From Nitrosospira briensis (GTDB taxonomy: Bacteria > Pseudomonadota > Gammaproteobacteria > Burkholderiales > Nitrosomonadaceae): 62,963 nucleotides of DNA. Below, one piece after another: positions 18,833 to 28,206 of the stretch. The translations under genes were made by a program, and so were the position numbers. The notes beneath the pieces are model-generated. The model did not search any database and was not told the DNA's origin. It worked only from the letters and a program-made list of their open reading frames with translations. Each line of letters opens with the position of its first letter. Positions within the stretch are counted from its first letter, which is position 1. The DNA is taken from assembly GCF_900115125.1 (NCBI RefSeq), contig NZ_FOVJ01000010.1, positions 1 to 62,963 of the forward strand. The letters are read 5' to 3'.

Positions 18833-20317
18833 TCAGGAAATACTGGTTACAGATCTGCGGAGAACAATAAAGCCCATCAAGGCCATCAAGCCCATACCAG
18901 ACAGTAACACGGACAGAGCGTTGGATTCCGGCATTGCGGAGATTGGATCCGGTCCCGGCAGCCCGGATTCCGGAATTGCAGAGGCCAGATTCGGTTCTGG
19001 AATTGCGGAGATCATGATCGTACTGTCCACGAGACTATCCGGGTGTTGCACATTCACATAGGCTACATTGTTATCAAACTTGTCAAAATAAAGGCCGGTA
19101 GCCTCCGCCCCGACGGTGGACAGAGATGCCCAGCGAGCAACAGAATCAGCTACGCCGTCGTTGTCGGCATCCCGGGCGAACCAGATGTCCGCCATTCCGG
19201 CGGGCTGGTCCTCAACAATATAAATATTTCCCGCCGCATCGATCGCCAGATTATCGGGGTTGGCCAAGGCGGTGCCTACTGATACGCCCGTGGACTTATC
19301 AACGGTGTCACGGTTGACAAAGAGCTTTACCTGATTGGAGTCAAGATTAATGGAGTACACCTGGTGGGTTGCCGTGGTGGCCACAAACAACATTTCATCT
19401 CCGTTGGCCAGGGTTTTAATCTCCATATCCTCGGGGCGCTGGTAACCGGTACCTTTCACCATTTTCGCTGTCTCGCGGCCATCAATGGTTCCATCGGCAT
19501 TCATCACCGATACCCCATCAATAGGACCTCCAGCCGTGTCAGTAATCGGGATCCATATAAAAGACCCGACTGCATTGGCATTGTCCCCCCCGTTTATCTG
19601 CAGGACAAAGGTCTGTCCGGCCGAGAAATACTCGTTACCCGTAGGGGCAGTGCTCTGGGCCGGCACATATTTGTAAATACTGCCGCCGTTGAACTCGTCA
19701 ACGAAATACAGGTTGTTCTCTCTGTCAAAGGCAAGCCCTTCATGCGCTACACGCGGCACGATAGACCGATGGACGAAATTGGAGTCGCTGCCGCCCGTAG
19801 CAGTTGTCGGATTGGTAAGCTCAAATAAACGTCCTTTAGTACTTCCCTTTTCCCAGGACTCCTCCGCGGTCAGATAGCCGCCCCAAGGTGCCCAGCGAGA
19901 GGCATCCCCCTTGGTGAAGCCTTGAGTGCCAGGCTGAACGAGAGTTGTGGTCAGTCCTGTTTTTAAATCCATGCGCTGTACTCCCGCTTCCAAAGTTTCA
20001 AAAGGGATAAACAGGTAGCGGCCGGCGTCAAACCCGGTCTCGTTAGCGGTGATCATGTCCCAGCCACCAGAGTTGGGTTCGCCAAGCCTGAGCTGGCTCA
20101 TGCGATCCGCAATCCGGACCTGCGAGAAACTCGTTGAAGAAAACGTAAACGGAGAACTCTCCGGGAGGGAGCCGGCAGCAACGCTGCCCGGGCTAGCATG
20201 AAATTTGGCGAAATGCGTATCGGCAACTGTAGCGTGTGCCGTGGTAGCCATTACCAGAAGTATCGCTACAACAATAAACCTCGAAATTTTCTGTTTAAAC
20301 ATGGCATGGAAGCTCAT
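18833..20317 (-). CDS. DUF839/PhoX-like secreted protein with PEP-CTERM sorting tail
   Basis: A protein of about 494 residues with a signal peptide (FIVVAILLVMATTAHA). The large central domain resembles PhoX/DUF839 propeller phosphatases (AHEGLAFDRENNLYFVDEFN, DNLAIDAAGNIYIVEDQPAG). The C-terminus has a PEP-CTERM-like signal: MPESNALSVLLSGMGL, a hydrophobic helix and an RR end. Exosortase would recognise it and direct export or anchoring. The PE motif occurs three times (AIPEPN, AIPESG, AMPESN). A Pho-box-like site and TATATT -10 at 20389-20394 set the start downstream of about 20385, so ATG 20317 or 20302, not upstream in-frame codons. Phosphatase activity is inferred. Confidence 0.75.
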   Translation of the reverse strand: MSFHAMFKQKISRFIVVAILLVMATTAHATVADTHFAKFHASPGSVAAGSLPESSPFTFSSTSFSQVRIADRMSQLRLGEPNSGGWDMITANETGFDAGRYLFIPFETLEAGVQRMDLKTGLTTTLVQPGTQGFTKGDASRWAPWGGYLTAEESWEKGSTKGRLFELTNPTTATGGSDSNFVHRSIVPRVAHEGLAFDRENNLYFVDEFNGGSIYKYVPAQSTAPTGNEYFSAGQTFVLQINGGDNANAVGSFIWIPITDTAGGPIDGVSVMNADGTIDGRETAKMVKGTGYQRPEDMEIKTLANGDEMLFVATTATHQVYSINLDSNQVKLFVNRDTVDKSTGVSVGTALANPDNLAIDAAGNIYIVEDQPAGMADIWFARDADNDGVADSVARWASLSTVGAEATGLYFDKFDNNVAYVNVQHPDSLVDSTIMISAIPEPNLASAIPESGLPGPDPISAMPESNALSVLLSGMGLMALMGFIVLRRSVTSIS

Positions 20318-20388
20318 AATTGAACAGCCGTCGCAACTGAAAAGCACAGCAGCTCTCAGCCTTGCCCTCAACTGATTCACGGGGTCGA

Positions 20389-20421
20389 ATATACCTTTAG
20401 AATATGACCGGACGATGACAC
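20389..20421 (-). promoter_or_regulatory. Pho-box-like operator and -10 for the PhoX-like gene
   Basis: On the minus strand GTGTCATCGTCCGGTCAT (20421 to 20404) gives two half-sites, each with 6 of 7 matches to the PhoB half-site CTGTCAT, with the correct 4-base spacer. About ten bases later TATATT (20394-20389) is a good -10. This is the normal geometry of a PhoB-activated promoter. Transcription would start near 20382, upstream of ATG 20317 and 20302. Confidence 0.6.
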
Positions 20422-20581
20422 TGTTGCTGCGAGCATTGCGGTTAGGGATCCGCAAATTTGAAAGCAGTTTGATTTTCATGGGCACGAAAAAAGCCGCACG
20501 GCATAAAACTTCATTATTTCGCATAAATACTGCAACACGCCGTCGTTAACATGGGCGCTCCAATACAACCAGGAGGGCGCC

Positions 20582-20809
20582 ATGCCTAACTATGCTGTCT
20601 ATACGAGAACCTCCGCCGAACATGTCGTTCGCGTCAGGAATCTCTCTACCAGTTATCCCTACGATCTTTTAAAGCTCCATTTTCATAAAGAATCACTTAC
20701 CGGCTTTCCCGAGAACACCGTATTCTGGATAAACCGCGAAGGCCCCAGCGTGGGCTTTGCGCTCCGCTCAGACACACAAAACCCGCCAGCTCAGGGTGGG
20801 TTGAAGTAA
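20582..20809 (+). CDS. Small protein of unrecognised family (paralogue of 27466-27708)
   Basis: A 75-residue protein that I cannot assign to a known family. It is real: AGGAGGG lies 5 bases before the ATG, and a paralogue with about 45 percent identity over the conserved part is encoded at 27466-27708 on the other strand. Shared blocks are YAVYxRT at the N-terminus, PYDL in the middle, and HxExLxGFPExxVxWxNxxGPSVGxA in the second half. The protein is soluble, with no signal peptide or membrane helix. It is divergent from the PhoX-like gene and convergent with the porin, inside the phosphate block. Confidence 0.75.
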   Translation: MPNYAVYTRTSAEHVVRVRNLSTSYPYDLLKLHFHKESLTGFPENTVFWINREGPSVGFALRSDTQNPPAQGGLK

Positions 20810-21169
20810 GCTACCTGGATTGGCACACACCGATCTCCAGCTACTTTATTTCCCCCTGGAACATTCGCTCGTAATCAAAGCCTGAGCTAATCCATCCTGA
20901 TCTCCGGATCATGGCGATCGCAAAATATCCCACAGCATCATCCGTAGCTTCAACGGGTCGAGAGTGACCGCACACCCTCGGCGCAATGGTCCTCATGAAA
21001 AGATACGATATAAATTTTCAAATCCTTAAAGCAAAAAAACCCGCTGGATTAGCGGGTTTTTTTGCGGGCATTTCTCGATCTATGCAAGCAGAGGCAACAT
21101 TTGAGGCGTTTTTCGTTACAAAGTTAATGCCGTTGACTCGTCATCACGCACTTTCTCAGCGAATCGGTA
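20810..21169. other. Intergenic stretch between small gene and porin (convergent)
   Basis: These 360 bases hold no supportable gene. The only clear element is the bidirectional terminator at 21040-21063, about 230 bases after the small gene and 107 bases after the porin stop. Confidence 0.5.
21033..21063. terminator. Bidirectional rho-independent terminator
   Basis: CCCGCT (21040-21045) pairs with AGCGGG (21051-21056) around GGATT. Seven A precede it and seven T follow it, so it can work on both strands. It lies between the convergent small-protein and porin genes. Confidence 0.9.
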
Positions 21170-22672
21170 TCAGAACGCTATTTGGCTCCGGAACATAAAG
21201 GTATGCAGGTCATCCGGTTTTCCACCGCTTGCCGTCACCAGCGGTGAATCCTTGATTTCCAGGATTTTGTCGTAGTTGAACATGAAGCGAACATTGTGGT
21301 TCACGTACCAGTTCAGGGCAGCGGTAAAGTTTTTCATCTCGCCTGCCCTGAAGGCGCCATCGTTCATATCCACTCCCCCGATACGTGCTGCCAACTCCCA
21401 TGCGCCCCATCCGCCCTTCGAAAAACTGAAGTCTCGGGCCGGCTCAATTCTGAAGAATTTTCCTTCCTTGTAGTTACGCGATTCCCCAGTCAGCGTCCAT
21501 GCCGCTTCGCCATACCAGCCATTGAAGCTTAGCGAATCCAGGCCATTGTTGCGGCCAATCCAGCTATGGGTATATTCGCCTCCGGCGCTGAACGGGCCAT
21601 ATACGCCACTGGCCTCCAGGCCAAGCATCTTGACGTCCTCGATATTACCCAGGGTGCCCGAATCGATCGGAAACAGGTTAGTCAGATGCGACGTTTCATG
21701 CCTGAATCTTACCCCATTGGAGGGACCGAACAACTGGCCGCTGCCGCTCGGTTTACGATAGTTTCCCGCCACGCCTAAATGGATAACCCTGTCCTTTTCG
21801 TTAATGGGCGCAAAAGTGACACGCGAACTGGTTCCCCAGCTTTCATCCAGGCTGTTGTTATTGGCGTCGATCGACTCGCCATAAAGTCCAACCTGTCCAG
21901 TCCAGTTTTTACCGGTGTTTGACACATTCAGACCAATCGCCCGATCTACGAGCGGTGCGTTAAGCACATTCATTAATGATCTTTCCACAAACATGAGATC
22001 GTTGGAGCTTTCCTGCAACTCACGGCTGAAAGGCTGTTTCTGATGGCCGAGGTTGACCTTTGCGAAATCCAGCCCTTTATATGAGATAAACATATCCTTG
22101 ACGCCGACACTGTTATCAGCAAAGTCGATCTGGCTCTTGAAATCCCAGTCCTTGAAGAAAGTGCCTGAGAACTCCAGTCGCCCCCTGCGCAACTCTGCCC
22201 CATCATTGGCTTGAACCGGAGTGCCGTCCCTGAAGAAGAAATTATCATTACTGCTATGGCTGTAATCCGTGTGGATCCGGCCCCCGATCTTGAACTTGAA
22301 ATTCTTGTCTGCCGATTCGAATTGCAAGCCGTTTTTATCCAGCTTGAGTTGCTTTTGGCTTTCCTTGACACGTTCCTCAATCGACTCAACCTTGCCGATG
22401 AGCTGAGCCCGCTCCGCCTTTTCTTTTAATCTCGCGCTTCTGTCGCCGGACGCTGGCTGGCCGGCTCTCTCTGCCTCCGGCGCAGGCGCTGGATTGTTCG
22501 ATGAGGCACGTTCGACTCTTTCAAAAGTACCTATAGGTTGCCGGTCAGTCCCCGGCTCTCCATATATCTGCTTGGTTTTGGTATCGATATAAAGGTCAAT
22601 CGCAAAAGCCCCTGATGATACGCTTGCCCCCAGGGCAGCTGCCGCTGTCAATATAAGTCTCGAAAATTTCAA
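21170..22672 (-). CDS. Phosphate-selective porin (OprP/OprO family)
   Basis: A 500-residue outer-membrane porin. A signal peptide (LILTAAAALGASVSSGAFA) is followed by a coiled-coil stretch near residues 75-115 (ARLKEKAERAQLIGKVESIE), as OprP trimers often have. The beta-barrel begins FKIGGRIHTDYSH and includes ELRRGRLEFSGTFFKDW and KVNLGHQKQPFSRE. The C-terminus ends in Phe (SQIAF), the BAM recognition signal. The start is TTG 22672, with GGGAG 7 bases upstream. A near-consensus Pho box lies 94 bases before the start, so phosphate-starvation control by PhoB is likely. It is downstream of pstS on the same strand. Confidence 0.88.
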   Translation of the reverse strand: MKFSRLILTAAAALGASVSSGAFAIDLYIDTKTKQIYGEPGTDRQPIGTFERVERASSNNPAPAPEAERAGQPASGDRSARLKEKAERAQLIGKVESIEERVKESQKQLKLDKNGLQFESADKNFKFKIGGRIHTDYSHSSNDNFFFRDGTPVQANDGAELRRGRLEFSGTFFKDWDFKSQIDFADNSVGVKDMFISYKGLDFAKVNLGHQKQPFSRELQESSNDLMFVERSLMNVLNAPLVDRAIGLNVSNTGKNWTGQVGLYGESIDANNNSLDESWGTSSRVTFAPINEKDRVIHLGVAGNYRKPSGSGQLFGPSNGVRFRHETSHLTNLFPIDSGTLGNIEDVKMLGLEASGVYGPFSAGGEYTHSWIGRNNGLDSLSFNGWYGEAAWTLTGESRNYKEGKFFRIEPARDFSFSKGGWGAWELAARIGGVDMNDGAFRAGEMKNFTAALNWYVNHNVRFMFNYDKILEIKDSPLVTASGGKPDDLHTFMFRSQIAF

Positions 22673-22765
22673 AGCTATGCTCCCGGTTATGATGTTTATG
22701 GTTATGTTTATTGCTAAAACCGGAGCAAGAATAGGGAAAGAAGATGACCGCCTTATTAACCTTTT

Positions 22766-22783
22766 GTAACAGTTCTATGACAG
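22766..22783 (-). promoter_or_regulatory. Pho box upstream of the porin
   Basis: The minus strand reads CTGTCATAGAACTGTTAC. The first half-site matches the PhoB half-site CTGTCAT exactly, the spacer is 4 bases and A-rich, and the second half differs from CTGTCAY by one base. A TTAATA -10-like hexamer follows at the expected distance (around 22753-22760). Confidence 0.8.
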
Positions 22784-23341
22784 TACCAAGGGCAGAGTTG
22801 AACGACGATGGCTTGGCTGATCCACTCCGGGTATGGGATGGTTTTCCATAATGGCTTACCATGCAACAAGTAATTGAAGGAGCAGTCTCTTCAAGGGCTC
22901 CCATGCAACTGAAGGTTTCAATAAAAGGATGGGTGGAACGCCTGGTCCGTCCCGTTTTCGGGTGCGGTTCCGGAGATAACGGTGAAGAAGCCGGATGAAC
23001 GAGATTTCTTGCTCCTTGGCCTGGCTCGAACCAGCATCGGGTGCATTCGCTGGCATTCCGGCAGAGAACAATCACCTGGGGTAGGGGGGGCGAAGAGGAA
23101 ATGGGCCGTCCGTGATAAAAACTTGTGGAAATGATAGATGGAACTATGGGGGTGGAAAGCCCTGAAGATGGAGGACGTACTTTTGGATAGAATTGCCGGT
23201 AGCTGAAAGCTGACCACCTGCTGGACAGCCTGTATTTAGCCAACTACCAACAATTCCCGGTCCGCGCTATTCTTCCCCCGAAGATTTAAAGGCTTGAATA
23301 GCAGTGCTTATGCATTTTGCCACCTTATCTTTTTCGTGGTA
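22784..23341. other. Long intergenic stretch between pstS and the porin
   Basis: About 560 bases separate the pstS stop from the porin's Pho box. Open frames occur on both strands, but none shows a ribosome site, domain or protein-like composition. I see no gene, tRNA or repeat. Because the porin has its own Pho box, pstS and the porin are probably separate transcripts. Confidence 0.5.
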
Positions 23342-24346
23342 TTACAGGCTGGCTTCACGCTTGAGCAGCTCATCGATCTTGAGCCCCACTTCTGGTTGGC
23401 CGTTAAATACCGTGCCAACTCTCTTCTTGTTCAGATGCTCCAGATTAGTGGTGTAAGCTTGCGCTGGCAGCGGAAAATATTTAACTTCCCTTACCAGAGC
23501 CGGTCCTTTTTTCATATAAAACTCCACAAACTCTTTGACCCCCGGTTTTTCTGCCGCCTTGACATTCACGTAAATAAAAATCGGGCGTGACAATGGCTGG
23601 TAGCTTCCATCCTCCACGGTTTTAATGGATGGGATAATACTGCCTTTGCCTCCATCAACAGCGAGTGCTTTGATCTTTTTCTGATTTTCAAAGTAGTAAG
23701 CGAAACCAAAAAACCCGAGCCCGTTTTTATTGCTCGCCACCCCCTGTACAAGCACGTTGTCATCTTCGGAAGCAGTGAAATCTCCGCGGCTCGATTTGGC
23801 CTTTCCGACGATGGCTTCAGTAAAGTAGTCAAAGGTGCCAGAATCCGCTCCGGGACCGTAGAGGCTTATCGGATCATCAGGCCAGCCCGGGTTTACTTGA
23901 TTCCACTTGGTTATTTTCCCCTGCGCATCGGGCTCCCAAATCTTTTTCAGTTCTGCAACGGTGATAACCTTAACCCAGTCATTTTTTGGATTCACCACAA
24001 CCGTCAACGCATCGTACGCCACTGGCATTTCAACGTATTGCACTCCCACGGCTTTACAATCGTCCATTTCTTTTTTCAGGATAGGGCGCGAAGCATTGGC
24101 GATATCAATTTCACCGCGGCAAAATTTCTTGAAGCCGCCGCCCGTGCCCGAAATACCAACTGTCACTTTAATGGCACCGTTCCTGGCTATTTGAAAATCT
24201 TCCGCCACTGCTTCGGTAATGGGATAAACAGTGCTGGAGCCATCAATTTTTACAACCGGCTCAGCATGCACAACACTGCCAGCTCCAAGCAACGCACCCA
24301 ACACAATTACTACTGCCATTAAGTCAATACCCCGCAATTTCAGCAT
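23342..24346 (-). CDS. pstS: Phosphate ABC transporter substrate-binding protein PstS
   Basis: A 334-residue periplasmic protein that binds phosphate for the high-affinity Pst importer. The signal peptide ([18 protein letters not shown]) is followed by the phosphate-contact segments [33 protein letters not shown] and [14 protein letters not shown], which identify PstS/SphX. ATG 24346 has GGAG 7 bases upstream. No pstC, pstA or pstB lies nearby, so it works with permease genes elsewhere or as an accessory copy. A weaker Pho-box-like site lies upstream at 24472-24489. Confidence 0.93.
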
Positions 24347-24678
24347 TTTTTTCTCCGTAAAATGGATAAGGTGCCACTTCCAGCGTCGTCGCTACCCTGG
24401 TTAATTCTTGCCTCTTTATAGGAAACCATTCGGAGAATACGGCCCGCATGTGTCGGTATCATTTCCGTTTTGTGGCGTTTTCATGACACGGGCGAGCTTG
24501 GCCATAATGAGAGGCGGAGTGAGCGAGGCAATCACAGGAGAGTTCAAGCCGGCACGGCCGGAAGATGCATGGGTAATGAAACGCGATGATGGGTATTGTT
24601 AACTTGTGGTTTTGTTCCCATCCCTGACTTGAACGACAGGCTCGCCTTTACCATGATCGAAATCGATTTTTCTATTCT
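24347..24678. other. Intergenic stretch upstream of pstS
   Basis: These 332 bases lie between the pstS start and the MFS stop. Apart from the ribosome site and the weak Pho-box-like sequence listed separately, I see no gene or repeat. Confidence 0.5.
24472..24489 (-). promoter_or_regulatory. Weak Pho-box-like site upstream of pstS
   Basis: The minus strand reads GTGTCATGAAAACGCCAC. The first half-site has 6 of 7 matches to the PhoB half-site and the spacer is A-rich; the second half matches at only 4 of 7. It is 126 bases before the pstS start. Its place in front of a classical PhoB target supports it more than its sequence does. Confidence 0.4.
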
Positions 24679-25926
24679 CTAGCCTCGATCCGCCGGAACA
24701 TTCAGGCGCCGAAAGGATATCAACAACGCCAGATCGTAGGTGATCTTCAAAACTCCACAGGCAATCAAAGGTGCACTCAGCAGTCCGCTGGCCAGCATAG
24801 CACCAGTCAAGGTTGGACCCGCGATAGAAGCAAGGCTGCGGGATACTGCGGTGAAGCTTGCAGCGGCAGTGCGCTCCGCCGGGGTGACCACAGCCATTAC
24901 ATAGGCAGTACGTGTAGGGACATCCATCTGCGATAATGCACTGCGTACGAGCAGCAGAGCGAGTGCGACCTCGAGATTTGGGGCGATTGCAGCAAAAATG
25001 AGGCACACACTGGCAGGAATGTGGGTGAAGACCATGGTGTTGAGCAGCCCGATCCTTTGTGCGATGGCCGGTGCGGCAAGCTGGGATCCGGCCGACAGGA
25101 GTCCGGCGCAGAAGAAGAATGTACCGGCCTCTCCGAGCGACAGTCCAAACCGCTCGAAGAGCCAGAGCGTCAGCAGCGAGTTTCCCAACAATCCCCCAGC
25201 AAACGCATCAATGCTGAATAACATGGCAAGCTTGAACACAATGCCGCGTGACGGACCCAACGGCTGTGATAACGGGGCACTCCGGACTTTAATCACCGGC
25301 AGAGTTCGATAGAGCAGCCAGACGGATCCGCCCAGTAGACCATACAGCACGAACATTGCGCGCAGGCCATCAATTAAAGAAAGCCCCAACCCTGGCACCA
25401 GCCAGGACGGGATGCCGGCTGCCGAGGCACCAACGGCGGCGCTCAGTGAGCCAATAAGCGAATAACGAGCGAACAGTGCGGTGCGCGCGTTGCCGCTGGC
25501 CGCTTTTGCCAGGCGGGCATGTTCCAGCGGCAAGAATATGCTTACATCGGCAGAACCCGGATTAAGGGTTCCTACGAATGCGACAACAAATAGTGGCCAA
25601 AACGAGGTAACGCTCGCGAAGCTGAAGCCGGTAATTGCCATTAACAAGGCAGCGGACAGCAGCAGCCGGCGACTTGTCCATCTATAGCCAATTGCACCGA
25701 GCCCGAGCATCGCCAAAGCCGACCCTGCTAACGTTGCCGTGGTTAAAAAGCCTACGTCCAGTTGATCAAATCCCAGCGCCAGCAGATAAGCCGGCAAAAG
25801 CACAGCAACATAGCCATCGCCAAAGGCGCGCAATGCTCGAGCTGCCAGTAATGGGTAAGCGGTTTCAGCTACTCCCACAGGCATGAGCAAACGGGTAAGC
25901 ATCCTGCGCCCAACGCCTGCTTTCAC
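24679..25926 (-). CDS. Major facilitator superfamily transporter
   Basis: A 415-residue inner-membrane protein with about 12 hydrophobic helices. The loop between helices 2 and 3 is MFS-like (GAIGYRWTSRRLLL), and mid-protein helices include LSAAVGASAAGIPSWL. Substrate and subfamily cannot be told. I chose GTG 25926 because GGAGG at 25936-25940 is 9 bases upstream; the TTG at 25959 has no ribosome site. The promoter region, including that ribosome site, lies in an 89-base sequence repeated at 27787-27875. Its place between pstS and the sulfate-type binding protein suggests a role in nutrient or anion transport, but this is inference. Confidence 0.8.
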   Translation of the reverse strand: MKAGVGRRMLTRLLMPVGVAETAYPLLAARALRAFGDGYVAVLLPAYLLALGFDQLDVGFLTTATLAGSALAMLGLGAIGYRWTSRRLLLSAALLMAITGFSFASVTSFWPLFVVAFVGTLNPGSADVSIFLPLEHARLAKAASGNARTALFARYSLIGSLSAAVGASAAGIPSWLVPGLGLSLIDGLRAMFVLYGLLGGSVWLLYRTLPVIKVRSAPLSQPLGPSRGIVFKLAMLFSIDAFAGGLLGNSLLTLWLFERFGLSLGEAGTFFFCAGLLSAGSQLAAPAIAQRIGLLNTMVFTHIPASVCLIFAAIAPNLEVALALLLVRSALSQMDVPTRTAYVMAVVTPAERTAAASFTAVSRSLASIAGPTLTGAMLASGLLSAPLIACGVLKITYDLALLISFRRLNVPADRG

Positions 25927-26354
25927 TGATTTGATCCTCCATTCGTAATCTATCTGCAAGTAATGCCGAATTAGCCGCTCAGGGTTTATTCAGCGCTACC
26001 TTGTGCATCAAATACCTTTTTTTATGGTTTTCCGCAGCTGATACTGATACTCAACGGCATGACGTGCGAAAAACCGTCATTGCATCGATAACGCGGTCAT
26101 CTTAGTAGATATATTCGACTGGAGGGTACCGCAGCCTGACGTGATGTGGCGGCCCCTTCTGCAAATGAGGCCGGCGCCCTCGTGATCCGCTGGCGCTCGA
26201 CCTGGTGCTTGTGTGGCCGTGGATCGGGGAACTCCCGCTAATCAGGTTTCCCCAATTAGAGTGGACGTAAAGTGGACGAACTGTTGATAACTACCCTTGC
26301 GGCCGCTCGAAATCTTTAATTCTTGAGGACGGGTAAATTATCCATCGCGCTTAT
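25927..26354. other. Intergenic stretch between MFS gene and sulfate-type binding protein gene
   Basis: About 430 bases without a supportable gene. It contains the 89-base repeat copy at 25928-26016, an imperfect dyad (ATGACG at 26059-26064, CGTCAT at 26075-26080) upstream of the MFS promoter region, and a short tandem (GTGGACGTAAA then GTGGACGAA) near 26262-26281. Confidence 0.5.
25928..26016. repeat. 89-base upstream repeat, copy B
   Basis: It aligns without gaps to 27787-27875, with 64 of 89 identical bases by hand count. Strong blocks are GATTTGATCCT, AATGCCGA and TGTGCATC. This copy carries the MFS ribosome site and lies immediately in front of that gene. Confidence 0.8.
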
Positions 26355-27431
26355 CTACAACGCGGCATCGGTAGAGACCTTCAGGGCGACAGAATCTGCA
26401 ACATTACCGGTGATCTGGTCAAACACACCGCCCCTGGCAAAATGCATCTGCTGGGCTTTCTGCCAGCCGCCGGACACCTCGTCAACCGTAAACAGCTCAA
26501 GGTGGGGAAACCGATCCTCATACTTGCCCGCAACGGACGGATCACGGGGACGGTAATAGTGCTTGGCGGCGATATGCTGCGCCTCGGGTGTATAGAGGTA
26601 CGCGATGTATGAAGCCGCTACACCGCGCGCGCCATTCCCATGTGCAGCCGCATCCACTACGCTTATAACAGGCTCAGCCACAATGGACATGGACGGGGTA
26701 ACGATTTCAAACTTATCGTTTCCGCTATTCTGAACGATCAGGTTCGCTTCATTTTCCCATGTGAGGAGTACATCGCCTATATTGAGAAAGACAAAGGCAG
26801 TAGCCGAGTTTCCCGGCTTTTTACCATTGGAGTCCACGGTCTGGGCGTTGGCAAATAATTGGCTGACAAATTCACGCGCGGCCTGTTCACTGCCGCCAGA
26901 TTGCCTCATCCCGTATTCCCAGGCCGCAAGATAATTCCACTGACCGCTTTCAGAGCTTTTCGGGTTTGCGGTAACTAGTTTTATATCAGGACGTGCCAGA
27001 TCGCTCCAGTCCTTCAGTTCCTTTGGGTTGCCTTTCCGTACGAGGAACACGATCGGGGACGTATAGGGTGAAGGATAAGAGCCAACCCGGGAATCCTGCG
27101 CGAAAAGTTCGCGGGGACCTGGGGCGATAAATCTTTTTCTATCATGCAGCTTGCTCACGTCGTAGGACAACGCAAGGGCGGGAACATCGAGTCCATCGAC
27201 CGTAATATGCACGGGCTTTCCGGACTTGCTCCGCGCTTGCTCCACCTTGATATCCATGCCCGTCACGGTTTTCCAGTGAGAGGCAAACTTAACACTCAAA
27301 TCCTCATGTAACCGCCCCGCGGCACCGGGTGCAGGACGACCTGGAAAATTGGTCAGGGTAGCGTAGGCGGCGCCCAGGCTCACCAGCGCTATAAATATAC
27401 CAACAGCGAAATGGGAAGTATTGAGAGTCAT
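26355..27431 (-). CDS. Sulfate-type (Sbp/CysP-like) ABC substrate-binding protein, divergent
   Basis: A 358-residue protein with an N-terminal hydrophobic export signal (FAVGIFIALVSLGAAYA). The body matches Sbp-type proteins: FASHWKTVTGMDIKVEQ, PALALSYDV, SPIVFLVRKGNPKEL, WNYLAAWEYG and GDVLLTWENEA. The ligand-site segment that reads TSGGARWNYLAA in classical Sbp reads SSESGQWNYLAA here, so the bound oxyanion may differ. ATG 27431 has GGAGG about 9 bases upstream. It starts 34 bases after the small paralogous gene and is probably co-transcribed with it. No cysT, cysW or cysA is nearby. Confidence 0.85.
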   Translation of the reverse strand: MTLNTSHFAVGIFIALVSLGAAYATLTNFPGRPAPGAAGRLHEDLSVKFASHWKTVTGMDIKVEQARSKSGKPVHITVDGLDVPALALSYDVSKLHDRKRFIAPGPRELFAQDSRVGSYPSPYTSPIVFLVRKGNPKELKDWSDLARPDIKLVTANPKSSESGQWNYLAAWEYGMRQSGGSEQAAREFVSQLFANAQTVDSNGKKPGNSATAFVFLNIGDVLLTWENEANLIVQNSGNDKFEIVTPSMSIVAEPVISVVDAAAHGNGARGVAASYIAYLYTPEAQHIAAKHYYRPRDPSVAGKYEDRFPHLELFTVDEVSGGWQKAQQMHFARGGVFDQITGNVADSVALKVSTDAAL

Positions 27432-27465
27432 TTTTAATTTCCTCCAGTTGCCAAGCAGCTTTGCT

Positions 27466-27708
27466 CTAGGCAACCAATAATTTGGGGGAGTTGCTATCAG
27501 CGTTAATAGGGGCTATCCCTACGCTGGGCCCTGTACTGTTTTTCCAGAGCACGACTGATTCAGGAAAACCGACAAGCGCTTCTTCGTGCACATAGGGGGA
27601 TAACGAACCATAGGTTCCTCGCAAATCGTAAGGCAGATTGGAAATAACATTATTCATGCGTTCGATATAGCCTTCTTCAGTCCGGACATACACTGCGTAT
27701 TCAAACAT
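27466..27708 (-). CDS. Small protein of unrecognised family (paralogue of 20582-20809)
   Basis: An 80-residue soluble protein without recognised domain, signal peptide or membrane helix. Blocks shared with the protein at 20582-20809 are YAVYxRT, PYDL and HEEALVGFPESVVLWKN with GPSVGIA. It has 6 extra residues between PYDL and the His. AGGAG lies 7 bases before ATG 27708. The gene leads a likely two-gene transcript with the sulfate-type binding protein. The two paralogues face inward and bracket the nutrient block. Confidence 0.78.
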   Translation of the reverse strand: MFEYAVYVRTEEGYIERMNNVISNLPYDLRGTYGSLSPYVHEEALVGFPESVVLWKNSTGPSVGIAPINADSNSPKLLVA

Positions 27709-28206
27709 CGTTCACTCCTGCAAGAAGATTCGGTTCGCAAATCTTACTGCGGGTTTGTTACAGCATTTTTAAGGGGCTCACGGCTTGATTTGATCCTACA
27801 TGTGCGATCTGTCGACAAGCAATGCCGATTTCGTCACTTTTGGTCTATCCGGCGCTGCTCTGTGCATCTAATGTCGTTATGCAGCGCAGCCGGTTGGAGC
27901 CGAGGATGAAAGCTACATGCAGGAGGAGCGGACTCCGAAGTCACTTGCGCTGGAAAACCTTAATCAGCGGTCGAAGCAATCAAAGGAAGGCCAGTCAGGC
28001 AACGGAAGAGGGGGCGAGAGCCTGTTCGAGAACGGGCTTCCTCTCAGATAGCTCAGACGATCGCGAAGATGAAAAAACGAACTGGTCGGGTCGGCGGGCA
28101 TGACTATCTAGCTTGCGCCAGCTGACGAATATTTCGAGGAAGGAGCGCGCGGGACTACCCGTGGACATTTGCCACCAGAGGGGCGTCGTGGGATTGCCAG
28201 GTACTC
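27709..28206. other. Intergenic stretch between small gene and apaG
   Basis: About 500 bases without a supportable gene. It holds repeat copy A at 27787-27875. Frames on both strands here lack ribosome sites and recognisable domains. Confidence 0.5.
27787..27875. repeat. 89-base upstream repeat, copy A
   Basis: Ungapped match to 25928-26016 (64 of 89 bases) at an offset of 1859. It lies 79 bases upstream of the small paralogous gene. The position equivalent to the MFS ribosome site is CCTAC instead of CCTCC, and no MFS-like coding sequence follows. It may be an upstream region left from a duplication, or a shared regulatory element. Confidence 0.8.

Follow-up and report, generated by a model that had tools for sequence, protein, structure and literature searches.

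Two short genes that flank a block of phosphate- and sulfate-type uptake genes in Nitrosospira briensis belong to a family of small proteins, which we read, with a probability of roughly 0.5, as phage-derived accessory genes that were domesticated and multiplied in the Nitrosospira group and that move between phages, plasmids and chromosomes. The stretch of DNA that was analyzed, here called the window, is an entire contig of 62,963 bp (NZ_FOVJ01000010.1, C20) from a genome of 3.23 Mb (GCF_900115125.1). An initial annotation had described the two genes as inward-facing paralogs that bracket the nutrient block, and had proposed that they encode a small regulatory or accessory protein linked to anion limitation. 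This observation was both correct and understated, the interpretation finds partial support, and the main interest of the family lies in a putative promoter that is nearly private to it and in its link to phages.

Results

Two paralogous genes and their relatives

Copy 1 (P0001, 75 aa, 20582..20809, + strand) and copy 2 (P0002, 80 aa, 27466..27708, - strand) both begin with ATG in the list of open reading frames (ORFs) and face each other as had been described. Their paralogy was confirmed by BLASTP, with 32/75 identities (43%), 46/75 positives and an E-value of 4e-20, which is near the identity of about 45% estimated earlier by hand; the one 6-residue gap of that estimate was recovered together with an additional gap of 1 residue, making 7 gap positions. 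The ribosome sites that had been noted are also present, as Shine-Dalgarno-like AGGAGG and AGGAG sequences 5' of the start codons of copies 1 and 2, respectively. Within their own genome the two copies are the sole matches at E < 0.1, with the third match at E 0.78. When compared to the orthologs in genome G010, the nearest relative included in the analysis, the proportions of nonsynonymous (pN) and synonymous (pS) differences were 0.094 and 0.368 for copy 1, and 0.038 and 0.286 for copy 2, and the pooled pN/pS ratios of the two orthologous groups to which the window copies belong were 0.46 and 0.28. Since the pooled ratios of six orthologous groups all fall between 0.27 and 0.46, we consider the family members to be selected protein-coding genes. 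Altogether, 62 members were retained as non-redundant (> 15% different from each other), of which 56 were aligned (alignment A1) after six fragmentary or frameshifted ones had been left out. Ten columns are invariant among these 56 relatives, i.e. Y7, R9, R17, P49, E50, V53, W55, G60, G64 and A66 in the numbering of copy 2, and this conservation, along with pN/pS ratios < 0.5, upholds the earlier view of a duplicated and conserved small-protein family.

Family copies were identified in 21 of the 23 Nitrosospira-group genomes, the two without copies being G002 (80% complete) and G017 (99% complete), while 102 other genomes of the same bacterial family yielded a single weak match (E 0.0056). The 21 genomes hold 111 places (2–14 per genome), which sort into 40 genomic sites; at least one of these places is spurious and was left in the counts (L091 2954, a genomic repeat that entered through a fused tail). 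At 95 places there was an ORF of ≥ 58 aa, which is all that "intact" denotes here. Tandem pairs approximately 100 bp apart are frequent among the copies, and some copies are decayed. Searches with alignment A1 of 399 genomes of the order, 369 of the class and 398 of the phylum, which are overlapping samples and small draws out of 97,973 genomes, returned only one match outside of the genus (E 0.0066), and when 398 genomes were searched at E ≤ 0.001 with a seven-row alignment that included mobile members, only the window genome itself gave matches. A single-pattern scan of 84,980 species gave 21 relatives, all 21 in Nitrosospira or Nitrosovibrio (Nitrosovibrio tenuis).

Two further observations concern how individual copies are arranged. 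One genome harbors a recent duplicate pair (L124 6082–6420 and L125 6331–6670; 89.7% over 435 bp), in which the two copies are alike between positions -94 and +338 relative to the gene, the likeness stopping close to a short palindrome past the stop codon. In genomes G012 and G014, family copies that are decayed or truncated (L086, L091, L092) carry a fusion to an interspersed repeat, roughly 85 codons in length.

Relatives on viral contigs and plasmids

Scans of viral contigs detected family members on four contigs, each of which carries phage genes: terminase, portal and RusA genes on a contig of 46.6 kb, integrase, excisionase and reverse transcriptase genes on one of 51 kb, Sak4-like and helicase genes on one of 8 kb, and primase and exonuclease genes on one of 61.9 kb. 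Three of the viral-contig members match the family in profile comparisons (E 1.1e-11, 6e-17 and 1e-17), and the fourth shares 61% identity with a chromosomal copy of Nitrosovibrio. On the 46.6-kb contig, the family gene is divergent from a spanin-like gene located 148 bp away (PHROGs Rz-like spanin, E 8e-5), and the same divergent pair recurs on chromosomes, at four places that represent three sites and with the genes 55–66 bp apart, the chromosomal spanin gene being a remnant at the site shared by G015 and G022 at least. Elsewhere in the 1.4 Mb of host sequence examined, no further spanin match of this kind was found. Phage members also nest among chromosomal ones in a tree, which is unrooted, has 69 columns, leaves out six fragments and does not take support values into account. 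The spanin pairing, the nesting in the tree and the 61% identity together indicate that family genes have passed between phages and hosts of the Nitrosospira group, and a phage origin of the family is fairly supported.

A more distant relative (33% identity, family profile E 2e-10) is present on three conjugative plasmids of Xanthomonas translucens, where it lies between an N-6 DNA methylase gene and genes for DUF932, DUF2688, SSB and VbhA/Fic proteins. Methylase, SSB and VbhA/Fic gene categories are reported to be enriched in plasmid leading regions (PMC11541004).

On the viral contig L175 (56–1123, 3492–5562), which encodes a reverse transcriptase, a row of small ORFs with a distant family relative adjoins the integrase and excisionase genes. 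Another phage-contig gene (L177 7169–7699), next to a family copy, has homologs 0.5–6.2 kb from copies at six loci (L067, L106, L108, L117, L137 and L140); because it had no match in PHROGs, it was not counted as a phage marker.

A 32-bp element found upstream of family copies and almost nowhere else

Upstream of both window genes lies a 32-bp element with the consensus TAAAAAT-n-CTG[CT]AACAAACC-n-TC-a-GTACAAT. The element of copy 1 is located at 20521..20552 (+ strand, E 6.5e-5), its -10-like end being 29 bp before the start codon, and that of copy 2 at 27741..27772 (- strand, E 2.3e-6), ending 32 bp before the start codon. It was found in 28 of the 62 non-redundant members, usually ending 27–41 bp 5' of the start codon, and in none of 565 control genes from the same loci; several second genes of tandem pairs are among the members that lack it. 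Conservation is near zero over the 60 bp upstream of the element and low downstream of it. A genome-wide model of the element, with which the best 150 first-look candidates per genome were scored, yielded 40 hits with E ≤ 0.01 across 23 genomes; in 39 of these a family copy starts 9–95 bp downstream, and the remaining one precedes a collapsed family copy in G009. We take the element as a putative promoter that nearly exclusively serves this family.

Comparison with Pho-type promoters was made with a matrix whose training set comprised 24 of 30 porin promoters. Family sites scored a mean of -11.2 bits vs -14.8 bits for controls, and 2 of the 28 element-bearing members reached the control 95% point, against an expectation of 1.4. 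When matches to the Pho consensus were counted, members had a mean of 10.4 vs 9.9 for controls, 24% of 91 members reached the control 95% point, and none exceeded 12.75 of 15. The element therefore failed the matrix test as a canonical Pho box, and a Pho box as the whole account of it was rejected. It does hold a Pho-like CTGYAAC unit 10 bp before the -10-like box, and this unit is exactly in register with the best Pho-matrix site of at least 8 of the 28 element-bearing members. Because the unit occurs at a Pho-like spacing and an 11-bp repeat accompanies it, a response regulator of the OmpR/PhoB type stays a candidate for control of the element, and represents a reasonable guess. Readings of the element as ECF-sigma, sigma-54, heat-shock or FliA type were weighed by eye and dropped.

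Family databases and predicted fold

In the searches made of Pfam, NCBIfam, PHROGs, PADLOC and PDB sequences, the earlier statement that the two proteins belong to no recognized family stands. No curated-family match above cut-off was obtained in the first four of these; NCBIfam gave nothing for the two window proteins even at E 10, and PHROGs gave no family match at E 0.1. The best Pfam match of the family was OB_RNR_2nd (E 0.011, under its cut-off, 2 of 56 members) and the best in PADLOC was AbiEi, a weak match of 1 of 60 members (E 0.045). The match to CD276 in the PDB sequence search (E 6e-4) is a weak one, reflecting local likeness over 16 residues. Two AlphaFold models had predicted local distance difference test (pLDDT) values of 79.6 and 93.1, with a predicted template modeling (pTM) score of 0.79 for the better one, and the family is predicted to consist of small all-beta (beta-sheet) proteins of 60–90 residues. 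Neither the PDB nor BFVD provided a convincing structural match to the models; trigger factor, EVH1, FKBP and Dcp1 were listed weakly as folds and were not used. A search of the open-access literature found no publication on the family, which does not imply absence from print, and we regard the family as previously undescribed.

The nutrient block and the sulfate-binding-protein gene

All genes of the nutrient block between and beside the two copies are on the - strand. Divergent from copy 1 is a gene for a PhoX-like protein (18833..20479; PF05787, E 1.9e-17), and on the other side of copy 1 are those for a protein of the phosphate-selective porin O/P family (Porin_O_P, 21170..22651; PF07396, E 1.7e-59), a PstS-family phosphate-binding protein (23342..24346; TIGR02136, E 1.3e-96), a major facilitator superfamily (MFS) transporter (24679..25959; PF07690) and a sulfate-type substrate-binding protein (SBP, 26355..27431; NF008022, E 1e-96; TIGR00971), the last located 34–37 bp downstream of copy 2 on the same strand. 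The description of copy 1 as a neighbor of Pho-regulated genes was supported, in that two of the PstS-family, Porin_O_P and PhoX-like genes have Pho-type promoters. One of these promoters, with Pho half-sites, is 5' of the porin gene (22728..22783, - strand) and the other is 5' of the PstS-family gene (24434..24467, - strand; 29.0 bits with the matrix from porin promoters only), the latter serving as a control for the family element. They are the two best Pho-matrix sites of the whole window, the porin site itself being in the training set. The Pho-type porin promoters of Nitrosospira (L222, L230, L231, L236 and L239) consist of at least three 11-bp repeats (CTGTNACAAAA / CTGCAATAAAA / CNGACAT), in runs that stop 10 bp before a TATTCT-like -10 box.

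Proximity to such a transporter block (≤ 3 genes) was observed at 6 of the 40 sites and 20 of the 111 places. Orthologs of copy 1 occur in nine genomes and sit elsewhere than the block in seven of them, at the block only in the window genome and G010. Genomes G019 and G020 have the same order of SBP, MFS, PstS, porin and PhoX genes, with no copy between porin and PhoX and with two family copies between PstS and porin. Because the copy 1 ortholog is mostly elsewhere and these two genomes lack a copy between porin and PhoX, the two-sided bracket is not conserved, and bracketing of the nutrient block is a local feature. The general link to anion limitation proposed in the initial annotation is unsupported by these counts, the homologs being mostly scattered, with no such neighbor at 34 of the 40 sites; this is largely the outcome that the annotation itself had named as a refutation.

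The pairing of copy 2 with the SBP gene is much steadier. Of 11 places with the SBP gene or its remains, 10 have a family copy 5' of it in the same orientation, full-length in 7 cases and decayed in 3; at the eleventh (G009, L129 2857–3444), where the family gene itself is gone, its promoter and its first few codons still precede a broken SBP gene. This pairing in 11/11 places, along with the shared strand and the short gap, agrees with the earlier proposal of a likely operon; outside of the window the gap ranges from 5 to 164 bp. The copy and the SBP gene decay independently: G019 and G020 combine a truncated copy with an intact SBP frame, and G003 has a broken SBP gene behind an intact copy. 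By coordinates, the other SBP paralogs of the genus have no family copy nearby.

Discussion

Under our preferred reading of the family as phage-derived and domesticated, decaying prophages would have left family genes behind in chromosomes, and the host cell would have kept those that help it, a benefit with which the purifying selection on orthologs is consistent. Gene-sized duplications may then have spread the gene together with its promoter; in the window, they would have placed it at either end of the phosphate/sulfate block, where copy 2 would have become the first gene ahead of the SBP gene. The protein would be made from its own promoter, probably under an OmpR/PhoB-type response regulator, and may act within the cell in conflicts between mobile elements, e.g. 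by excluding a second phage or blunting a defense. This last role is the least certain part of the account and a doubtful one, suggested by the position of family genes on phages and plasmids; many accessory genes of temperate phages act in this way. More speculative again, and improbable as a whole, is a genus-wide, multi-copy system of phage origin in soil ammonia oxidizers that protects against or mediates between mobile elements, with a dedicated OmpR/PhoB-like regulator acting on the 32-bp promoter and one branch coupled to sulfate/phosphate uptake.

Several observations weigh against a phage-derived, domesticated family. The spanin remnants occur at only 3 of the 40 sites, the tree carries the limits given above, and the direction of phage–host transfer is something that we infer. 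The family had no match among 50,697 annotated phage records and is accordingly uncommon among phages sequenced so far, and no convincing match to the family exists in PADLOC. Those phage relatives and spanin-adjacent copies that were checked lack the 32-bp element, and the element and the phage link thus concern different members. The 11-bp repeat within the element is modest (39 of 2000 shuffles). The steady SBP pairing, for its part, favors a nutrient function of the branch concerned, which is the main rival to a role in mobile-element conflicts, though an unlikely one.

A nutrient role for the family at large, with small regulators or accessory proteins that are made under phosphate or sulfate limitation and act on neighboring uptake systems, would account for copy 2 or its remains preceding the SBP gene in all 11 places, for copy 1 adjoining Pho-type genes, and for an element whose CTGYAAC unit, 10 bp before the -10-like box, recalls the Pho half-sites of the porins and coincides in register with the best Pho-matrix site in at least 8 of 28 members. 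However, most sites (34 of 40) are without a nutrient-block neighbor, the Pho matrix passes only 2 of 28 family sites yet gives the PstS-family gene 29 bits, each partner of the SBP pairing decays without the other, and the remaining SBP paralogs of the genus have no copy close by; we therefore consider this explanation unlikely.

Somewhat less likely still are two explanations in which the family is either selfish or mundane. A selfish or addictive cassette, consisting of the small gene and its own promoter, could copy around the genome and persist without benefit to the cell, in line with the tandem and dispersed copies, many of them decayed, and with gene-sized duplications that bring the element along, as in L124/L125. 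Yet that pair, the one inspected, shows no transposase, terminal repeats or target-site duplications, and purifying selection on orthologs argues for use. Alternatively, the family could be an ordinary house-keeping protein of the genus, merely picked up from hosts by phages and plasmids; in the data searched, copies on chromosomes are far more numerous than those on mobile elements, and the 61% identity between one phage member and a Nitrosovibrio copy suits such a pickup. Against it stand a 99% complete genome of the genus without any copy (G017), wide variation in copy number and sites, plasmid relatives in Xanthomonas, far from the genus, and the presence of the spanin pairing in chromosomes as a remnant.

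If the phage-derived reading is true, soil nitrifiers of a widespread group carry an undescribed, selected family of mobile-element origin, in as many as 14 places in a single genome and under a nearly private promoter, and one motif, one small protein and one regulator would make up a compact and testable system. The two copies would then flank the nutrient block by chance, and a scattered family derived from mobile elements would have been mistaken for a pathway component.

The relatives of the family in Xanthomonas translucens resemble the uncharacterized plasmid leading-region genes treated in PMC11541004 in their setting among N-6 DNA methylase, DUF932, DUF2688, SSB and VbhA/Fic genes, and by its gene content this block may represent a leading region. 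With a sulfate-type SBP gene following it after 34–37 bp in the same orientation, copy 2 is reminiscent of sulfate ABC operons of the cysP/sbp type, but the SBP gene of the window has no adjoining permease or ATPase genes, and other SBP paralogs of the genus are unpaired. Likeness to the Pho regulon is seen in neighbors with Pho-type promoters and in an element with a CTGYAAC unit at a 10-bp spacing from a -10-like box; unlike Pho sites, the family element fails the Pho matrix and is nearly confined to family copies. A known class of temperate-phage accessory ("moron") genes lies near the lysis region. The family differs from the described ones in having no sequence match and no convincing fold match to any of them, and in occupying 2–14 chromosomal places per genome with a common promoter element, but it resembles them in that its gene is small, lies on the opposite strand to the lysis genes beside a spanin-like gene, and would have been kept by the host after decay of the prophage.

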